Source of the DNA: Rhodovulum bhavnagarense
GTDB lineage: Bacteria; Pseudomonadota; Alphaproteobacteria; Rhodobacterales; Rhodobacteraceae
Assembly (NCBI RefSeq): GCF_004343505.1
Contig: NZ_SLXU01000001.1
Span: forward strand, 62,001-126,000
Direction: 5' to 3'
Length of the DNA: 64,000 bases
A model generated the notes under the pieces. The model saw nothing but the letters and a program-made list of their open reading frames with translations, did no database searches and was not told the DNA's origin. The translations under genes and the position numbers were made by a program. Below, piece by piece: positions 42,458 through 55,222 of the stretch (position 1 is the stretch's first letter; every line of letters starts with the position of its first letter).

Positions 42458-45400
42458 TCAGGTCCGCCGCAGGTCCAGCGTGTAGGGGAAGGCCCGATTG
42501 ACCCCGCGCCAGCCGGGCGTGGTGGCGCCGGCGCTGTGCCCGCCGGTCTCGAACCGGGCCAGGCGGCGGCCTTCGGCCTCCAGCGCGTTGATCGGGCGGG
42601 TTTCGTGGGCGCGGCCGCCCGGATGGGCGACATGGTAGGTGCAGCCGCCCTGCGACCGTCCCGCATGGCGGTCATACAGGTCGAAGACCAGCGGCCCATG
42701 GGCGGGGATCGTGGGGTGCATCGCCGACCAGGGCTGCCAAGCGCGGTAGCGGATGCCGGCGATGTGGCTGCCATCGGCCTGGGCCTGCAGCGGCACCGCC
42801 AGCCCGTTGCAGGTCAGGGTGAACCGGTCGGGGTCATGGCCGGTCAGTTTCACCTGCACCCGCTCTACCGAGCTGTCGACATAGCGCGCGGTCCCGCCCG
42901 CGCCGGCCTCTTCGCCCAGGGTCAGCCAGGGCTCGATCGCGTTGCGCAATTCGATATCGACGCCCGCGACCCGGGTCCGACCGACGATGGGGAAGCGGAA
43001 TTCGCGCTGGGCCTGGAACCAGTCGGGCGCGAAGGCAAAGCCGTGGGCGCGCGAAAGATCCTCCAGCACCTGGCCGAAATCGGCCCAGACCGGGTCGGGC
43101 AACAGGAACCTGTCGTGCAGATCCGTGCCCCAGTCGCGCATCTCGCCGCGCCAGGGCGTGTCCCAGAACCACGCGATCAGCCCGCGCAGCACCAGCGCCT
43201 GCGCCAGGCTCATCTGCCAGTGGGGCGGCATCTCGAAGCCGCGGAATTCCACCAGTCCCAGCCGGCCGGTCGGGCCGTCGGGCGAAAACAGCTTGTCGAT
43301 GCAGATTTCGGACCTGTGGGTGTTCCCGGTCATGTCGGTCAGAAGGTGCCGGAACAGCCGGTCCACCAGCCAGGGCGCGGCATGGCCCTGTCCGGCCAGC
43401 CGGTCCAGTTCCGACATCGCGATCTCCATCTCGTAGATCGCCTCTGGCCGGCCCTCGTCAAATCGCGGCGCCTGGCTGGTCGGGCCGATGAAGGTGCCCG
43501 AGAACAGGTAGGACAGCGAGGGATGCGCCTGCCAGTAGCGGATGATCGAGGCCAGCAGATCGGGGCGGCGCAGGAACGGGCTGTCAGACGGCGTCGCGCC
43601 GCCCACCACGATATGGTTGCCCCCGCCCGAGCCCACGATGCGCCCGTCCACCATGAAGCTGACGCTGTCCAGCCCGCATTGGCGGGCCTCCTCGTACAGG
43701 GCGGCGGTGATTTCTCGCAACGCGTCCCAGCCGTGGGCGGGGTGGATGTTGACCTCGATCACGCCGGGATCGGGGGTCACGCGGATCACGTTCACCCGCG
43801 GATCGCGCGGCGGCTCATACCCCTCGTTGCGGATCGGCAGGCCCAGTTCGGTCGCGGTTTCCTGCACCGCGTCCAGCAGGTCGAGATATTCCTCGACCGA
43901 CCCGGTCGGCGGGTAGAACACATGCAGGATGCCGTCGCGCGGTTCCACCGTCAGGGCGGTGCGGATCGGCGTGCCCGGTTCCCAGACCTTCGCGCCGTCC
44001 GTCAGCCAGTCGCCGGACGGACCCGGCTTGTGCAACGCGGTGTCCGCGTCCCTCCGGTCGGCGGGCGCAGGCGCGGCGTCGCTGGCCGACTGGCGCACGG
44101 TCTGGGGCCGCAGGCTGCCCGCATCGGCCATCGGGTCGCGCTGGAAGGGGCGGGGGGCCTCGTCGCCGATCCAGTTGAGCGAGGCCAGCGGCAGCCGGAA
44201 TCCCACCGGGCTGTCGCCGGGGATGGAAAACAGCCGCCCGCGCCGGGTTTCCCATTTCTCGGACGCCCAGCGATAGCGCCGGCCATCGCCCACGGCCTGC
44301 GCCTGGGCCAGTTGCAGCGGCAGCACATAGCCCGAGGGCGTGGTGAACCCGGTCGAGAACACGCGCGCCAGCCGGGCGCGTTCCTGCGGGTCGTCCAGCT
44401 TGCTGTCCTCGGGGGTGACATTGGCGGGCAACAGGGTTTCGCGGCCCAGGAATTCCATCGGGTCCTCGTAGACCGGCTGGGCGAATTCCGATGGCAGCCC
44501 CAGCTTTCCGGCCAGCGTCGCGCCAAAGGCCCGCGCGGCCTCGGCATCGGCGCCTTTCGCGCCCTCGGGGGCGATCAGGTCGGGTTCGGACCACAGCGGC
44601 GCCCCATCGCCGCGCCAGATCAGGGAATAGGCCCAGCGCGGCAATTGCTCGCCCGGGTACCACTTGCCCTGCCCGTGGTGCAGCACGCCATGGGGCGCAA
44701 ACCGGGCCTGCAGGCGGCGGATCAGCGCGTCGGCCTTGTCGCGCTTGGTGGGGCCCACGGCCTCGACCGTCCATTCGCCGGCATCGCGGTCGGTGGCGGA
44801 CACGAAGGTCGGCTCGCCGCCCATGGTCAGGCGCACGTCGCGGTCGGCCAGCGCCTTGTCAACGGCCTGGCCCGCGCGGTCGATTTCCGCCCATTGGGCG
44901 GGGGTCAGCGGGCGGGTGATGCGCGGCGGCTCTTTCAGGCGCATCACCTGCATGTCAAAGCCGAACGTGACCTCCGCCGGTTCATGCGCGCCGGTGATCG
45001 GTGCGGCGCTGCCCGGTTCCGGCGTGCAGGCCAGCGGGATATGCCCCTCGCCCGCGAACAGGCCCGAGGTCGGGTCCAGCCCGACCCAGCCCGCGCCGGG
45101 CAGGTAGACCTCGGTCCAGGCGTGCAGGTCGGTGAAATCGGCCTCGGGGCCAGAGGGGCCATCCACGGCCTTCTGGTCGGCGGCCAGCTGGATCAGGTAG
45201 CCGGACACGAACCGCGCGGCATAGCCGAATTCGCGCAGCATCGCCGCCAGCAGCCAGCCGGAGTCGCGGCATGACCCCAGCGCACGCTGGATGGTTTCGG
45301 TCGGCGTCTGCACGCCCGGTTCCATCCGCACCGTGTAGGCGATGGCCTGCTGCACATACTGGTTCAGCGCGACCATCCAGTCATTGGTGGACCCGGCCGG

Positions 45401-45808
45401 CTGCGGTGCCGCGGCGACGAAGGCGCGGAAGGTCTCGCTGTCGTCGATGCGCTTCAGATACGGGATCAGATCGTGGGCCAGCCCCGCATCGTAGGCAAAG
45501 GGCACCTCTTCGCAGCCCTCTTCGAGGAAGAAGTCGAACGGGTTGATCGCCACCATGTCGGCGACGACATCGACCGTGACCTCCAGCTTCTGCACCCGCT
45601 CGGGAAAGACCAGCCGCGCCTGCCAGTTGGCAAAGGCATCCTGTTGCCAGTTCATGAAATGCCCCGGCGGGTCGATCCTCAGGCTGTAGCTGCGGACTGG
45701 CGTGCGCGCATGCGGCGCGGGGCGCAGGCGCACGACATGGGGGGCAAGACCGACTGGGCGGTCATAGGCATAGGTTGTGCGATGGGTGAGGGCGATGGTG
45801 ATGCTCAT
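42458..45808 (-). CDS. Transglutaminase-like domain fused to DUF2126 (1116 aa)
   Basis: A fusion protein. The N-terminal ~290 residues are a transglutaminase-like domain: L-G-S-C-R-D-S-G-W carries the catalytic Cys, D-L-H-A-W-T-E-V the His, and G-L-D-P-T the Asp. The remaining ~800 residues are DUF2126, with G-G-E-P-T-F-V near 330, G-K-W-Y-P-G-E-Q-L-P and a C-terminal region resembling ATP-grasp/GCS-type cores (V-E-F-R-G-F-E-M-P-P). The ATG at 45808 (M-S-I-T-I-A-L-T-H-R-T) is the family start. The frame continues open beyond it, over the opposite gene, which is a shadow. It is divergent from the ATP-grasp/alpha-E/Anbu genes and probably part of the same pathway. Confidence 0.92.
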   Translation of the reverse strand: MSITIALTHRTTYAYDRPVGLAPHVVRLRPAPHARTPVRSYSLRIDPPGHFMNWQQDAFANWQARLVFPERVQKLEVTVDVVADMVAINPFDFFLEEGCEEVPFAYDAGLAHDLIPYLKRIDDSETFRAFVAAAPQPAGSTNDWMVALNQYVQQAIAYTVRMEPGVQTPTETIQRALGSCRDSGWLLAAMLREFGYAARFVSGYLIQLAADQKAVDGPSGPEADFTDLHAWTEVYLPGAGWVGLDPTSGLFAGEGHIPLACTPEPGSAAPITGAHEPAEVTFGFDMQVMRLKEPPRITRPLTPAQWAEIDRAGQAVDKALADRDVRLTMGGEPTFVSATDRDAGEWTVEAVGPTKRDKADALIRRLQARFAPHGVLHHGQGKWYPGEQLPRWAYSLIWRGDGAPLWSEPDLIAPEGAKGADAEAARAFGATLAGKLGLPSEFAQPVYEDPMEFLGRETLLPANVTPEDSKLDDPQERARLARVFSTGFTTPSGYVLPLQLAQAQAVGDGRRYRWASEKWETRRGRLFSIPGDSPVGFRLPLASLNWIGDEAPRPFQRDPMADAGSLRPQTVRQSASDAAPAPADRRDADTALHKPGPSGDWLTDGAKVWEPGTPIRTALTVEPRDGILHVFYPPTGSVEEYLDLLDAVQETATELGLPIRNEGYEPPRDPRVNVIRVTPDPGVIEVNIHPAHGWDALREITAALYEEARQCGLDSVSFMVDGRIVGSGGGNHIVVGGATPSDSPFLRRPDLLASIIRYWQAHPSLSYLFSGTFIGPTSQAPRFDEGRPEAIYEMEIAMSELDRLAGQGHAAPWLVDRLFRHLLTDMTGNTHRSEICIDKLFSPDGPTGRLGLVEFRGFEMPPHWQMSLAQALVLRGLIAWFWDTPWRGEMRDWGTDLHDRFLLPDPVWADFGQVLEDLSRAHGFAFAPDWFQAQREFRFPIVGRTRVAGVDIELRNAIEPWLTLGEEAGAGGTARYVDSSVERVQVKLTGHDPDRFTLTCNGLAVPLQAQADGSHIAGIRYRAWQPWSAMHPTIPAHGPLVFDLYDRHAGRSQGGCTYHVAHPGGRAHETRPINALEAEGRRLARFETGGHSAGATTPGWRGVNRAFPYTLDLRRT

Positions 45809-45955
45809 CGGTTCAAAGCCTGCCGATTCCTTGTGCAACCGGCGCAGGATCGCGCCAGTTGTGTTCAATCTATTCAGATCGCGGGCGAAAACGGCAGCGC
45901 CGATTGCGCGTATCTCGGGCTGGCGGCAGTCTGATAAGGCCCAAGAGGTGAAATA

Positions 45956-47374
45956 ATGTTCGACGAAATGTACGATGGCGCGAAAACGCGCAGAGAATAC
46001 AAGATCATCGAGGAATGGGTCGCGCGCCAGGGGATCGAGGCGCTGTTGACCAAGCGCGACGAGGCGGAATCCCTGTTCCGCCGCATCGGGATTACCTTTG
46101 CCGTTTATGGCGAGGGCGGCGATCCCGACAGGCTTATCCCCTTTGACATGGTGCCGCGGATCTTTGGCGCCTCGGAATGGGAGAGGATCGAGCGGGGTTC
46201 GATCCAGCGGGCCGATGCGCTGAACGCCTTCCTGCGCGACATCTACAGCGACCGCGAGATCATCAAGGCGGGCAAGGTGCCCGAGGCGATGATCACCGGC
46301 AACGAGGCCTATGAGCCGGTGGTCGCGGGCTATTGTCCGCCGCTGGGCATCTACTCCCATGTTGTGGGGGTCGATCTGGTGCGGGTCTCGGCCGACGAGA
46401 TCTACGTGCTGGAGGACAATTGCCGCACGCCCTCGGGCATCTCCTACGTGCTGCAGAACCGCGAGGTGATGTCGCGGATGTTCCCCGAGCTGTTCCAGAG
46501 CAACATGATCCGTCCCGTCGACGGCTATGGCGACATGCTGGCCGAGGCGATGCAGGCAGTGGCCCCGCCCATGTGCGAGGGCGAGCCGACACTCGCCCTG
46601 CTGACGCCAGGTCACTACAACTCGGCCTATTTCGAGCATTCCTTTCTGGCCGACCAGATGGGGATCGAACTGGTCGAGGGGGGCGATCTGTTCGTCAAGG
46701 ACAACCGGGTCTACATGCGCACCACCCAGGGGCCGGAACGGGTCGACGTGCTGTATCGCCGGATCGACGATGCCTTTCTCGACCCCAGGGCGTTCCGCCC
46801 CGACAGCATGCTGGGCGTGCCGGGCATCATCGACGCGATGAAGGCAGGCGGCGTGACCATCGTGAACGCCCCCGGCGCGGGCGTGGCCGATGATAAGGCG
46901 ATCTATACATACGTGCCCGACATGATCCGGTTCTACCTGGGCGAAGAACCGATCCTGCCCAACGTGCCGACCTGGCGCTGTGCCGATGACGAGGATTACA
47001 AATACGTCATGGCGCACCTGCCGGAACTGGTGGTGAAAGAGGTGCATGGCTCGGGCGGGTACGGGATGCTGATCGGCCCGGCCGCGACGCAAGAGGAAAT
47101 CGCCACCTACGCCAAGCGGATCGAGGCCGACCCCGACGGTTTCATCGCGCAGCCCACGCTGGCGCTCTCGACCGCGCCGGTGCTGACCGAACACGGGCTG
47201 GCGCCGCGGCATGTCGACCTGCGCCCCTTCGTGATCTCGGGCAAGACCACGCGGCTGATCCCCTCGGGGCTGACGCGGGTGGCCCTGCGCGAAGGGTCCC
47301 TGGTGGTCAATTCCAGCCAGGGCGGCGGCGTAAAGGATACCTGGGTTCTGAACGCGGAGGCTTCCGATGCTTAG
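45956..47374 (+). CDS. Circularly permuted ATP-grasp type 2 protein
   Basis: A 472-aa protein of the CP_ATPgrasp_2 family. Recognisable blocks are E-D-N-C-R-T-P-S-G-I-S-Y near 143-154, V-K-E-V-H-G-S-G-G-Y-G-M near 360-371 and R-P-F-V-I-S-G near 418. ATP-grasp enzymes form amide or peptide bonds through acyl-phosphates; this group is always found with alpha-E, transglutaminase and Anbu-like genes. The ATG at 45956 has AGAGGTGA upstream. It overlaps the alpha-E gene by 8 nt. A substrate has not been assigned to the family as far as I know. Confidence 0.95.
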   Translation: MFDEMYDGAKTRREYKIIEEWVARQGIEALLTKRDEAESLFRRIGITFAVYGEGGDPDRLIPFDMVPRIFGASEWERIERGSIQRADALNAFLRDIYSDREIIKAGKVPEAMITGNEAYEPVVAGYCPPLGIYSHVVGVDLVRVSADEIYVLEDNCRTPSGISYVLQNREVMSRMFPELFQSNMIRPVDGYGDMLAEAMQAVAPPMCEGEPTLALLTPGHYNSAYFEHSFLADQMGIELVEGGDLFVKDNRVYMRTTQGPERVDVLYRRIDDAFLDPRAFRPDSMLGVPGIIDAMKAGGVTIVNAPGAGVADDKAIYTYVPDMIRFYLGEEPILPNVPTWRCADDEDYKYVMAHLPELVVKEVHGSGGYGMLIGPAATQEEIATYAKRIEADPDGFIAQPTLALSTAPVLTEHGLAPRHVDLRPFVISGKTTRLIPSGLTRVALREGSLVVNSSQGGGVKDTWVLNAEASDA

Positions 47375-48347
47375 CCGGACCGCCAACGGGCTGTTCTGGA
47401 TGTCGCGCTATGTCGAGCGGATGGAAAACGTTGCCCGCCTGCTGGATGCGGGCCACAGGATGGAAAACCTGCCACAGCTTCAGGGGGCCAAATCCACCGA
47501 ATGGCGGTCGATCGTGATCGCCTCGGGCTGTCGGACGACCTTTCCCCAGCCGTTGGAACAGGCCAGTCGGAACACCGTCCCGCACCATCTTGTGTTTGAC
47601 GATGCCAATCCCTCGTCGATCCGCCAATGCGCTCGCGCCGCACGCGAGAATGCGCGCGCCATGCGCACCGCGCTGACCTCTGAGGTGTGGGATACGCTCA
47701 ACCAGAGCTGGGCCGATCTTCGTCATCGCCGTCCCGAGGATACGCTGGGCGGGCGCGAGCTGACCGAGTTCCTGGATTGGGTTAAATCCCGTGGTGCACT
47801 GGTGCGCGGTCATATCGACGCGACGATTTTGCGTGACGAGGGATATGCCTTTATCGAGCTGGGCAAGTGGATCGAACGGGCCGATGCGACAGCGCGCATT
47901 CTCGATGTCAAATACCATGTCCTGCTGCCCAAAAGCAGCGATGTGGGCGGGGGCCTGGATTATCTGCAATGGCTCCAGGTTTTGCGCGCGGCCAATTCAG
48001 CGACCGCCTATCGCCATCTCTACCGCCGTACCATCGATCCCGAGGGGGTTGTCGACCTGTTGGTGCTGAATGCCCGCAGCCCGCGTTCGCTCGTGACCGG
48101 TGTGCAGGGGATTTGCGCGGCGCTTGTGGCGATCGGGGTCCATACCGGGGCACAGCGCGCCACCCATGCCCGCGCGGTGGCCCTGCGCGAGGATCTGCGC
48201 TCGACCGGGGTCGACGCGATCATCATGGCGGGGCTGCATGAATGGCTCACGGGCTTCATCTCGGAAATCAACGCCCTGGCGACAGAGCTCGGCGCGGCCT
48301 ATGGCTTTGATGGGCACGAGGTGACGCCGGGCGAGTCGCTGCAATAG
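47367..48347 (+). CDS. Alpha-E domain-containing protein
   Basis: A 326-aa, mostly alpha-helical protein with the alpha-E family's N-terminus L-S-R-T-A-N-G-L-F-W-M-S-R-Y-V-E-R (residues 2-18). Glu and Arg are conserved along helices: E-R-M-E-N-V-A-R near 17-24 and W-I-E-R-A-D-A-T-A-R-I-L-D near 168-180. It always pairs with the permuted ATP-grasp and may bind its product or act as a helical scaffold. It overlaps the ATP-grasp gene by 8 nt. Function unproven. Confidence 0.95.
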   Translation: MLSRTANGLFWMSRYVERMENVARLLDAGHRMENLPQLQGAKSTEWRSIVIASGCRTTFPQPLEQASRNTVPHHLVFDDANPSSIRQCARAARENARAMRTALTSEVWDTLNQSWADLRHRRPEDTLGGRELTEFLDWVKSRGALVRGHIDATILRDEGYAFIELGKWIERADATARILDVKYHVLLPKSSDVGGGLDYLQWLQVLRAANSATAYRHLYRRTIDPEGVVDLLVLNARSPRSLVTGVQGICAALVAIGVHTGAQRATHARAVALREDLRSTGVDAIIMAGLHEWLTGFISEINALATELGAAYGFDGHEVTPGESLQ

Positions 48348-48438
48348 GCAAAGGTTGCGCCGACCCGCATTGCTTTCACTTGAACCGCGGTATTCTCCGG
48401 ACATAGATGGAGCGTTCATCGCGGAGTCGGATCTGACC

Positions 48439-49170
48439 ATGACCTATTGCCTTGCGCTGAAACTGACCGAGGGGCTGGTCTGCCTCTCCGACACGCGCAC
48501 CAACGCGGGTGTCGACAATATCGCGAAATATCGCAAGACCTTCACCTGGTCGGTGCCCGGCGACCGCGCGATCGTGATGATGACCGCAGGCAACCTGGCG
48601 GTCACGCAGGCGGTGATGAGCCTCTTGCAGGAAAACATCGACCACCCCGAATCGGGAATCGAGACATTGTTCACCGCACCCTCGATGTTCCGCGTGGCCG
48701 AGATCGTGGGCGATGCGATGCGCGTTGTGCAAAACCGCTATGGGCCCGGACTGTCGGCAATGGGCGAAAGCGCGGTCAGTTCCATCATCCTTGCCGGTCA
48801 GCGCGCGGGTGGGAAGGGGCGGCTGTTCCACGTCTATTCAGCGGGCAATTTCATCGAGGCGACAGAGGATACGCCCTATTTCCAGATCGGCGAACACAAG
48901 TATGGCAAGCCGATCCTCGACCGGGTGATTACCCCCGAAACCCCGCTCGAAACCGGCATCACCGCCGCGTTGTTGTCGATGGATTCGACCCTGCGATCGA
49001 ACCTGTCAGTGGGGATGCCGCTGGACCTGTCGGTGATCAAGGCCAGCGAGATCGGAATCGTGCATGAACGTCGCATCGAGGAAAACGATGCCAATTTCCT
49101 TCACCTGTCCGACAGCTGGTCTGCCGCCCTGCGCAGCGCCTTTGCCGATATGACCGGCATCCGGGTCTGA
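48439..49170 (+). CDS. Proteasome-type protease (Anbu/BPH-like)
   Basis: A 243-aa Ntn-hydrolase of the ancestral-beta-subunit (Anbu) family. The N-terminus M-T-Y-C-L-A-L-K-L matches the family; removal of Met1 would expose Thr2 as nucleophile. L-S-D-T-R-T-N-A-G near 18-26 and the M-M-T-A-G-N-L-A-V-T-Q segment are also typical. It should form a self-compartmentalised protease resembling HslV/proteasome beta rings. The start at 48439 is preferred over the longer open frame (48355) because the conserved N-terminus begins there. It follows alpha-E by 91 nt; no second transglutaminase gene lies between, as is often seen elsewhere. Confidence 0.93.
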   Translation: MTYCLALKLTEGLVCLSDTRTNAGVDNIAKYRKTFTWSVPGDRAIVMMTAGNLAVTQAVMSLLQENIDHPESGIETLFTAPSMFRVAEIVGDAMRVVQNRYGPGLSAMGESAVSSIILAGQRAGGKGRLFHVYSAGNFIEATEDTPYFQIGEHKYGKPILDRVITPETPLETGITAALLSMDSTLRSNLSVGMPLDLSVIKASEIGIVHERRIEENDANFLHLSDSWSAALRSAFADMTGIRV

Positions 49171-53851: not shown

Positions 53852-55222
53852 ATGTCCATTCCCCAATCCGGTGGCGGCCCGATCGAGGATCGCGCCCAAC
53901 TGGCCGAGTATCTTGAGGCGGGTTGCAAGCCCAAGGATGATTGGCGCATCGGCACCGAGCACGAGAAATTCGGCTATGACAAGAAGACGTTGCAGCCTAT
54001 CCCCTATGCGGGAGAACGGTCCGTGCTGGCAGTGCTGGAGGGGCTGCGCGTGCGCCATGGCTGGTCACCCGTCCTGGAGGGCGACCACCTGATCGGGCTG
54101 GAAAAGGACGGCGCCAATATCAGCCTTGAACCGGGTGGCCAGTTGGAACTGTCCGGCGCGCCGCTTGAGACGATTCACCAGACCTGCAACGAGGTGAACG
54201 AGCACCTGCGCGAGGTTAAGGATGTGGCCGACGAGATCGGCGTGGGTTTCATCGGGCTGGGGGCCGCGCCGATCTGGGAACACGAGGACATGCCGGTGAT
54301 GCCGAAAGGGCGCTATCGGCTGATGACCGATTACATGGACCGGGTCGGCACCATGGGCAAGACGATGATGTACCGCACCTGCACGGTGCAGGTGAATCTC
54401 GACTTCTCGTCCGAGGCGGACATGGTGAAAAAGCTGCGGGTGGCGCTGGCGCTGCAACCCGTGGCAACCGCGCTGTTCGCCAACTCGCCCTTTTTGGAAG
54501 GAAAGCCTAACGGCCACAAATCCTGGCGAAGCCGCGTTTGGCGCGACCTGGACCCGGCGCGCACGGGCATGTTGCCCTTCGTCTTCGAGGACGGGTTCGG
54601 CTTCGAGCGGTGGGTGGATTACGCGCTCGATGTGCCGATGTATTTCGTCTACCGGGACGGCAGGTATATCGACGCGCTGGGCCAGTCTTTCCGCGATTTC
54701 ATGGCCGGGAAACTGCCCGCGCTGCCGGGCGAGACGCCGACACTGTCGGACTGGGCCGACCACCTGACCACCATCTTCCCCGAGGCGCGGATCAAGAAAT
54801 TCATCGAGATGCGCGGCGCTGATGGCGGGCCGTGGCGGCGGTTGTGCGCGTTGCCGGCCTTCTGGGTGGGGTTGACCTATGACCAGGACGCGCTGGATGC
54901 GGCCTGGGATCTGGTCAAGGGCTGGGATGCCGAAACCCGCGAGCAATGGCGCGTTGCCGCCTCGCGCGACGGTTTGCAGGCCAATGTGGATGGGCGGTCG
55001 ATGCTGTCGCTGGCCGCCGAGGTGGTTTTGATCGCGCGGTCCGGTTTGCGCGCACGGGCGCGTCCCGGCCTGGGCGGCATGGTGCAGGACGAGCGCCATT
55101 TCCTTCACGCGCTGGAGGATTCGATCGAGACCGGCAAGGCCCCCGCTGACGAGTTGCTGGAACAGTACCACGGCGCGTGGGGGGGCGACCTCAGCCGGAT
55201 CTACGAAGAGTTCTGTTACTGA
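53852..55222 (+). CDS. gshA: Glutamate-cysteine ligase
   Basis: A 456-aa enzyme for the first step of glutathione synthesis, of the alphaproteobacterial/plant-type (class 3) group rather than the E. coli type. Visible features: R-I-G-T-E-H-E-K-F near 32-40 for the glutamate/metal site, L-E-P-G-G-Q-L-E-L-S-G near 92-102, M-Y-R-T-C-T-V-Q-V-N-L-D near 174-185 and I-E-M-R-G-A-D-G-G-P-W-R near 318-329. The ATG follows GCGGAGG. Redox/thiol homeostasis next to ubiquinone synthesis and rRNA modification is just gene order, not a shared pathway. Confidence 0.94.
   Translation: MSIPQSGGGPIEDRAQLAEYLEAGCKPKDDWRIGTEHEKFGYDKKTLQPIPYAGERSVLAVLEGLRVRHGWSPVLEGDHLIGLEKDGANISLEPGGQLELSGAPLETIHQTCNEVNEHLREVKDVADEIGVGFIGLGAAPIWEHEDMPVMPKGRYRLMTDYMDRVGTMGKTMMYRTCTVQVNLDFSSEADMVKKLRVALALQPVATALFANSPFLEGKPNGHKSWRSRVWRDLDPARTGMLPFVFEDGFGFERWVDYALDVPMYFVYRDGRYIDALGQSFRDFMAGKLPALPGETPTLSDWADHLTTIFPEARIKKFIEMRGADGGPWRRLCALPAFWVGLTYDQDALDAAWDLVKGWDAETREQWRVAASRDGLQANVDGRSMLSLAAEVVLIARSGLRARARPGLGGMVQDERHFLHALEDSIETGKAPADELLEQYHGAWGGDLSRIYEEFCY

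Follow-up and report, generated by a model that had tools for sequence, protein, structure and literature searches.

The locus described here occupies positions 42,458 to 49,170 of a 64,000-nucleotide stretch of Rhodovulum bhavnagarense DNA (contig NZ_SLXU01000001.1; hereafter the window). It comprises four genes, which encode a fusion of a transglutaminase (TG) domain with a DUF2126 domain (TG-DUF2126), an ATP-grasp protein (ATPg), an alpha-E protein (alphaE), and the proteasome-like protein Anbu. A preliminary description, made from the DNA letters and open reading frames alone, had given these genes and their directions, with the fusion gene divergent from the others and a 91-nt gap between alphaE and Anbu, and our coordinates and the matches in Pfam and the PDB agreed with it on all of these points (Table 1). 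ATPg, alphaE, and Anbu are adjacent on the forward strand, the first two overlapping by 8 nt, and the listed open frame of 1642 aa extends upstream past the likely start codon of the fusion gene. The locus belongs to the known Anbu/ATP-grasp/alpha-E/TG system. The naming or prediction of Anbu and its operon dates from 2008–2009, and we found no product or tested function for the gene set, nor the term "DUF2126", in the open PMC literature that we searched.

Table 1. Features of the TG-DUF2126/ATPg/alphaE/Anbu locus, in window coordinates.
Feature	Position	Strand	Remarks and evidence
TG-DUF2126 fusion gene	42458-45808	-	1116 aa, likely ATG at 45808
Papain-like transglutaminase domain of the fusion, N-terminal (aa 1-275)	44984-45808	-	Pfam; triad C180/H229/D245; fold match 3isr
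DUF2126 domain of the fusion, C-terminal (aa 276-1116); putative amidoligase resembling glutamine synthetase	42458-44983	-	PF09899; conserved stretches
Divergent intergenic region between fusion and ATPg, 147 nt	45809-45955	.	
ATPg, circularly permuted ATP-grasp ligase, 472 aa	45956-47374	+	CP_ATPgrasp_2; 3n6x
alphaE, alpha-E helical protein, 326 aa	47367-48347	+	PF04168
Promoter-like element CTTG-N20-ATAG within the alphaE-Anbu gap	48379-48406	+	Pattern match
Anbu, proteasome-like N-terminal-threonine hydrolase	48439-49170	+	243 aa from likely ATG

ATPg matched the Pfam family CP_ATPgrasp_2 over the whole model (positions 1–374 of 374; E = 2.5e-162, 540.5 bits) and the PDB entry 3n6x, which is named "putative glutathionylspermidine synthase" (E = 1.9e-188). 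alphaE matched the Alpha-E family (E = 9e-88), and its AlphaFold model, with a predicted local distance difference test (pLDDT) score of 88.4, was all helical; a fold relative for this protein was sought in the PDB, and no match was obtained at E ≤ 0.001. Anbu matched the Proteasome family of Pfam (E = 2.2e-07) and the solved Anbu structures 5loy (E = 3.9e-81), 5nyj (E = 6.3e-74), and 5nyf (E = 2.3e-73). The catalytic residues T1, D17, and K32 of the mature protein, as listed in PMC6376114 (this and the other PMC papers are cited here for parts of their text), are all present, and the threonine directly follows the assumed Met1, i.e., there is no propeptide. None of the four locus proteins had an NCBIfam match at E ≤ 0.01.

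In the fusion protein, DUF2126 (PF09899) was matched over the complete model (aa 276–1114, model positions 1–826 of 826; E = 0, 1202.7 bits, with a gathering threshold of 27), and the N-terminal part matched Bact_transglu_N (aa 6–83; E = 3.7e-26) and Transglut_core (aa 143–246; E = 1.8e-16). The catalytic triad of the TG domain was invariant in an alignment of 49 fused proteins and was also found in 19 of 19 fused sequences of the window's own type (type C, see below) and in 102 of 102 others, a set that has some duplicate loci. The stretches GGEPTF, GQGKWYPGE, GGGNH, GNTHR, and EFRGFEMPP of the DUF2126 part were conserved among the 49 proteins. In fold, the fusion model (pLDDT 81.9) matched best, at E = 9.1e-13, a putative Cytophaga hutchinsonii cysteine protease (3isr), with other transglutaminases as weaker matches. 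The best match resembling glutamine synthetase (GS) in the Foldseek search was YbdK (1r8g; probability 0.99 but E = 0.017), and chains of GS and GmaS appeared at E = 0.03–0.5, a range that also includes unrelated chains with very low probabilities. GmaS and PuuA are GS-like enzymes of nitrogen use that ligate amines. Because the fold output lacks aligned ranges, we infer from the domain positions which half of the fusion matches which fold. These fold matches agree, short of proof, with the Pfam annotation of DUF2126 as a "putative amidoligase". One DUF2126 gene elsewhere (G261:C319:3970-6459) has two stop codons within the reading frame and is likely a decayed or misassembled copy.

The comparison of gene order in relatives that the preliminary description had proposed was carried out and distinguished three arrangements, a distinction that is new here. 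In arrangement A, the genes follow each other as ATPg-alphaE-TG-Anbu. In arrangement B, TG-DUF2126, a single ATPg::alphaE gene, and a second TG all lie in the same direction. In arrangement C, that of the window, TG-DUF2126 is divergent from ATPg-alphaE-Anbu, and the lone TG is absent. The locus thus combines parts of two separate locus kinds, which the preliminary description had missed. With the Anbu operon, exemplified by Yersinia bercovieri, Pseudomonas aeruginosa PA1733, and P. putida PP_2685-2688, the window shares homologous ATPg, alphaE, and Anbu genes in the same order and direction (type A relatives; PMC6376114, PMC5666114). It differs in that the 91-nt gap, which sets Anbu off, takes the place of the lone TG found between alphaE and Anbu in the canonical operon, and in the divergent TG-DUF2126 gene. 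The TG-DUF2126 of type B loci (e.g., G107/L025) is 55–58% identical to that of the window; their ATPg is 27–31% identical to the window's and fused to alphaE, a second TG is present, and they have no Anbu of their own. The ATP-grasp and alpha-E proteins are encoded by one gene of ~770 aa in 30 type B loci (L002-L017, L022-L031, L035-L038), which points to a joint action of the two. Only 1 of 30 fetched stretches has an A-type Anbu and TG next to the B locus (L009:9205-17486, from G044); there, the B locus stands beside a convergent Anbu and TG, so that A and B adjoin, and the contig end cuts the arrangement short.

Of the 101 genomes of an order sample, 75 had Bact_transglu_N, 74 had Anbu, and 25 had the fusion; by fetched loci, 20 of these 25 had B, 3 had C, and 2 had the fusion by itself on the stretch. 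Anbu was present in 25 of these 25 fusion genomes, and the fusion occurred in none of the 27 Anbu-less genomes. The association of DUF2126 with Anbu gave Fisher p values of 1.5e-4 in the order and 4.5e-9 in the class, kinship being ignored; 13 of the 63 Anbu genomes of the class, 5 of them among the 24 with DUF2126, rest on weak matches (E = 1e-31 to 1e-40). Within the genus (16 genomes), ten had A and B (A was fetched in eight and taken from match positions in G112 and G114), four had C only, one had A only, and one had none. At least 21 C loci were seen, namely the window, L019, L150, and 18 others (L042-L047, L049-L051, L053-L057, L063, L066, L067, and L074). L042, L043, L066, and L067 coincide with L032, L034, L033, and L020, respectively, and L049 and L019 enter the 21 as separate loci although they are 95% alike over 3000 bases. 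The scan for related loci kept the best 80 of 568 relatives, ranked by likeness to the window, and C types are therefore over-represented. Type C was seen in the cultured species Rhodovulum adriaticum and in cultured species of Donghicola, Yoonia, and Octadecabacter.

A second TG in this context elsewhere in the genome, which the preliminary description had named as evidence that would speak against it, was not found. The genome of R. bhavnagarense (3.15 Mb, 99.8% complete) contains one Transglut_core match and one Bact_transglu_N match, both within the fusion. The fused TG was likewise the sole Bact_transglu_N protein in 20 of the 21 C genomes, TG counts in other genomes being based on Bact_transglu_N only, and several of the genomes reached via the named loci being metagenome bins whose completeness is not given. 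A lone TG lay between alphaE and Anbu in 25 of 25 fetched A loci, bearing out the claim that relatives have a separate TG at that place, and no DUF2126 gene was found on any of these 25 stretches (5–17 kb). These 25 loci were chosen and are not a random draw; L009, in which alphaE is off the contig, and L122, which has no Anbu, were excluded. A TG is also kept in L154-L156. Among the non-C Anbu genomes of the order sample, a non-fused TG lay within 4 kb of Anbu in 70 of 71 and within 2 kb in 67; the exception was G052, and in G044 the nearest TG match was the second TG of the B locus. Outside the C clade, three metagenome bins, one betaproteobacterial (L117) and two gammaproteobacterial (L112 and L088), had Anbu together with the fused TG as the sole TG found, and a Chelatococcus bin (L105) had ATPg-alphaE-Anbu without the lone TG, adjoining a full B set. 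In some A loci, further genes lie between TG and Anbu, by eye a gene for a 5'-nucleotidase-like protein (L154:3661-5697) and one for a cation/proton antiporter (L156:5590-7008), and in L155 a 243-aa frame; a role for such genes was dropped, those of L154 and L156 being unrelated by eye.

The ancestry of the C genes was examined in trees from which L049 and the duplicate places were excluded; those of TG and ATPg were built by a quick method with no bootstrap. In the Anbu tree, 19 C and 2 split rows were grouped (node values 91/80), L144 and L145, which are A loci from genomes G039 and G024, were closest to this group (99/90), and 24 other A rows stood apart (100/98). In the ATPg tree, C was found with L144 and L145 (98), which fall inside C, and far from B; the rows labeled "A" for L009 and "linked_other" for L008, L025, and L036 in this tree are really B genes. 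In the TG tree, 92 fused TGs formed one clade (99), apart from the lone TGs of A and the second TGs of B. The C TGs fell among the fused TGs without forming one clade, L056 grouping with two B-type Albimonas sequences (83). Type C thus appears to join ATPg and Anbu of the A lineage to a gene that otherwise occurs mostly in B loci, and since its ATPg and Anbu are A-like and its TG lies among the fused TGs, it seems to be a hybrid, with the fusion substituting for the lone TG. The trees would be compatible with either a loss of the lone TG in C or a regain in L144 and L145. An origin of C inside this genus by fusion of its own A and B loci was rejected, because the ATPg/Anbu clade of C lies apart from the genus's own A genes.

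Four genomes with mixed contents were also found. In Nioella (L064), one place has a C-type fusion and Anbu but lacks ATPg-alphaE, and another has an A-type ATPg-alphaE-TG but lacks Anbu, so that the parts look interchangeable. Ruegeria sp. 2205SS24-7 (L048) carries a full A locus plus a C-type fusion and Anbu, Aliiruegeria (L052) carries A, B, and a lone C-type fusion, and G296 carries a fusion and Anbu at L151 and a full A locus at L156. Each of the four retains at least one ATPg, alphaE, TG, and Anbu, which suggests that parts of A and C are exchangeable.

The gap between alphaE and Anbu in the C loci measured 94–345 nt between the matches, and the median distance between the TG and Anbu matches of A loci was 36 nt. 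Eight of the 21 C loci, from Rhodovulum and kin of Yoonia/Loktanella, share the pattern CTTG-N20/21-ATAG, placed at −59 to −65 relative to the start of Anbu; first-order shuffles gave a mean of 0.087 and a maximum of 2. It may be that Anbu has a promoter of its own in the 91-nt gap of the window. Because the pattern was picked after inspection of the gap sequences and a strict consensus promoter scan found none, we regard this separate transcription only as a lead. In P. putida, the promoter of PP_2685 (Anbu) is nitrogen-agnostic, and that of PP_2688 responds 3.7-fold (PMC8050072).

Several published studies connect genes of this kind with nitrogen. In Burkholderia cenocepacia, the genes I35_5080-5083 (BCAM1233-1236), with consecutive tags and encoding DUF404/407, DUF403, TG, and "large TG" proteins, are NtrC-dependent, being down by log2 8.2, 9.4, 9.4, and 6.0, respectively, in an ntrC mutant (PMC5491218). 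Unlike the window, this cluster has a lone TG too, and its "large TG" is a candidate counterpart of the fusion. In wild-type P. putida, nitrogen limitation raised PP_2686, PP_2687, and PP_2688 by 12.6-, 11.0-, and 14.7-fold (PMC7801951). PP_2685 and PP_2688 were higher on nitrate than on ammonium (PMC8050072), and PP2685-2687 were up in PMC3325844. In marine metagenomes, these domains were grouped with urea metabolism (PMC3597751). Further, the ATP-grasp homologue of Y. bercovieri released phosphate from ATP (PMC6376114).

Taken together, these data lead us to lean, with a slight preference, towards the explanation that the locus is a compact hybrid of A and B that works as a nitrogen-linked amide cycle. 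A TG-DUF2126 gene of the B kind would have become linked to an A-type Anbu cassette, standing in for its lone TG. Under nitrogen limitation, ATPg, with alphaE as a helper, and DUF2126 would spend ATP on joining a carboxylate to an amine as an amide; the fused papain-like TG domain would cut or transfer such amides, and the Anbu ring would hydrolyze the product, in a cycle that captures or releases nitrogen. The identity of the locus and the replacement of the lone TG are the part of this explanation that we consider quite likely to be right. The proposed amide chemistry is put forward more tentatively, as having somewhat less than an even chance.

Several of our own observations and of the published ones weigh against this explanation. 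The nitrogen data all come from other genera. Within them, PP_2685 (Anbu) was up only 1.1-fold on nitrogen limitation in the wild type, and PP_2686, PP_2687, and PP_2688 were still up 14.2-, 16.0-, and 19.6-fold in an rpoN mutant (PMC7801951), a persistence that speaks against strict sigma54/NtrC control in P. putida. Expression of the operon was unchanged under various conditions in work that PMC5666114 cites, and no clear conserved motif was seen in the alignment of the fusion/ATPg divergent region of 19 C loci, a conserved regulatory site there being accordingly rejected. Anbu showed no peptidase or amidase activity in the published assays of PMC6376114, and it binds proteasome inhibitors, with the authors favoring protein degradation (PMC5666114). 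The relation of DUF2126 to GS is weak in the structural models (Foldseek E = 0.017 at best), and no match was obtained with hhalign between DUF2126 and the GCS2 protein encoded in the window. A constant need of DUF2126 for Anbu, which held in the order sample, proved false class-wide, where 10 of 34 DUF2126 genomes have no Anbu match, two of the ten being incomplete (G236, 84%; G264, 74%). As to the replacement, one of the 21 C genomes, that of R. robiginosum, has an extra TG without ATPg or alphaE beside it, further TGs lie beside the linked fusion in L101, L104, and L152, which are outside type C, and the C loci are mostly one clade, so that independent replacements number perhaps three or four. 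Convergence of the C-type fused TGs on lone TGs was rejected, their mean identity to lone TGs being 0.246 versus 0.267 for the B-type, and a single diagnostic column separates the two types of fused TG. The proposal of the preliminary description that the fused TG does both jobs therefore stands as far as gene content is concerned, but finds no counterpart in closeness to the lone TGs and is at odds with the further TGs of these three loci. In the R. robiginosum genome (G104), two TG-like genes lie close together at L128:7232-9878, without ATP-grasp or alpha-E.

Three other explanations were weighed, all of which we judge improbable. In one, no substitution took place: the lone TG was not needed, and the neighboring fusion belongs to a separate pathway and shares a promoter region. 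This would fit the want of convergence, the DUF2126 genes without Anbu in part of the class, and the further TGs beside the linked fusion just mentioned. The lone TG, however, is kept in 25 of 25 fetched A loci and is missing in 21 C loci and in L117, L112, and L105, where the fusion is linked, with the limit that clade members are not independent in these counts. In another, the locus serves protein or peptide tagging, with ATPg (and DUF2126) attaching a non-ribosomal peptide tag, the TG trimming or transferring it, and Anbu degrading the tagged proteins or removing the tag. The idea of an amide-linked peptide or tag that is made and degraded is reportedly that of Iyer in 2009. Two predicted ligases alongside a protease-like protein would suit tagging, which is summarized as a published hypothesis in PMC5666114 and PMC6376114. 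However, a scan of the four locus genes and of ten flanking genes found no AAA+ unfoldase, PMC5666114 considers protein degradation likelier than a role in peptide synthesis, PMC6376114 states in the part cited that no hypothesis was experimentally confirmed, and the published induction by nitrogen limitation fits nitrogen scavenging at least as well. The nitrogen-responsive expression, together with the phosphate release by the ATP-grasp protein in other genera, leads us to prefer nitrogen scavenging by an amide cycle to a protein tag. Still less probable is a turnover of protein in nitrogen starvation, in which Anbu and TG would be proteases recycling protein nitrogen and ATPg and alphaE would regulate them: the binding of proteasome inhibitors to Anbu and the degradation favored by its authors (PMC5666114) and the nitrogen induction in P. 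putida (PMC7801951, PMC8050072, PMC3325844) would accord with it, but Anbu preparations were inactive on proteasome peptides (PMC6376114), and it leaves the two ligases unexplained, likewise DUF2126 in the Anbu-less genomes.

Glutathionylspermidine synthetase/amidase is a single protein that combines a thiol amidase domain with an ATP-grasp amide ligase. The ligase in the fusion of the window would instead be DUF2126. A rather doubtful extension of our explanation is that the fusion would be a ligase and an amidase in one chain, able to plug into an Anbu cassette and to replace the separate TG, and that the four single-copy genes of the window would be the smallest form joining both locus kinds, a so far undescribed nitrogen-linked amide cycle that would be split in other bacteria over two loci with up to three TGs. 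Genomes with A only also hold each part once, but without DUF2126; no smaller form than type C was seen that unites DUF2126 with the Anbu set, and its presence in cultured species opens both the exchange of TGs and the role of DUF2126 to direct tests. In genomes that have both A and B (10 of 16 in the genus, 20 of 101 in the order sample), the effects of single knock-outs could be masked. The locus is thus a compact variant of a known, unexplained gene set, and may help to reveal what the set is for.

Beyond the locus, a gene for a GCS2-type glutamate-cysteine ligase lies at 53852-55222 of the window, 4.7 kb beyond Anbu. A link with it was dropped, because among the fetched stretches it was near the locus only in L033 (R. 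adriaticum); the stretch of L066, which is the same place, ended before the GCS2 gene. In L153:7043-7759 (G052), Anbu stands on a 14-kb stretch without an ATP-grasp, alpha-E, or TG match, and one gammaproteobacterial locus (L088:6218-16462) has two Anbu genes.

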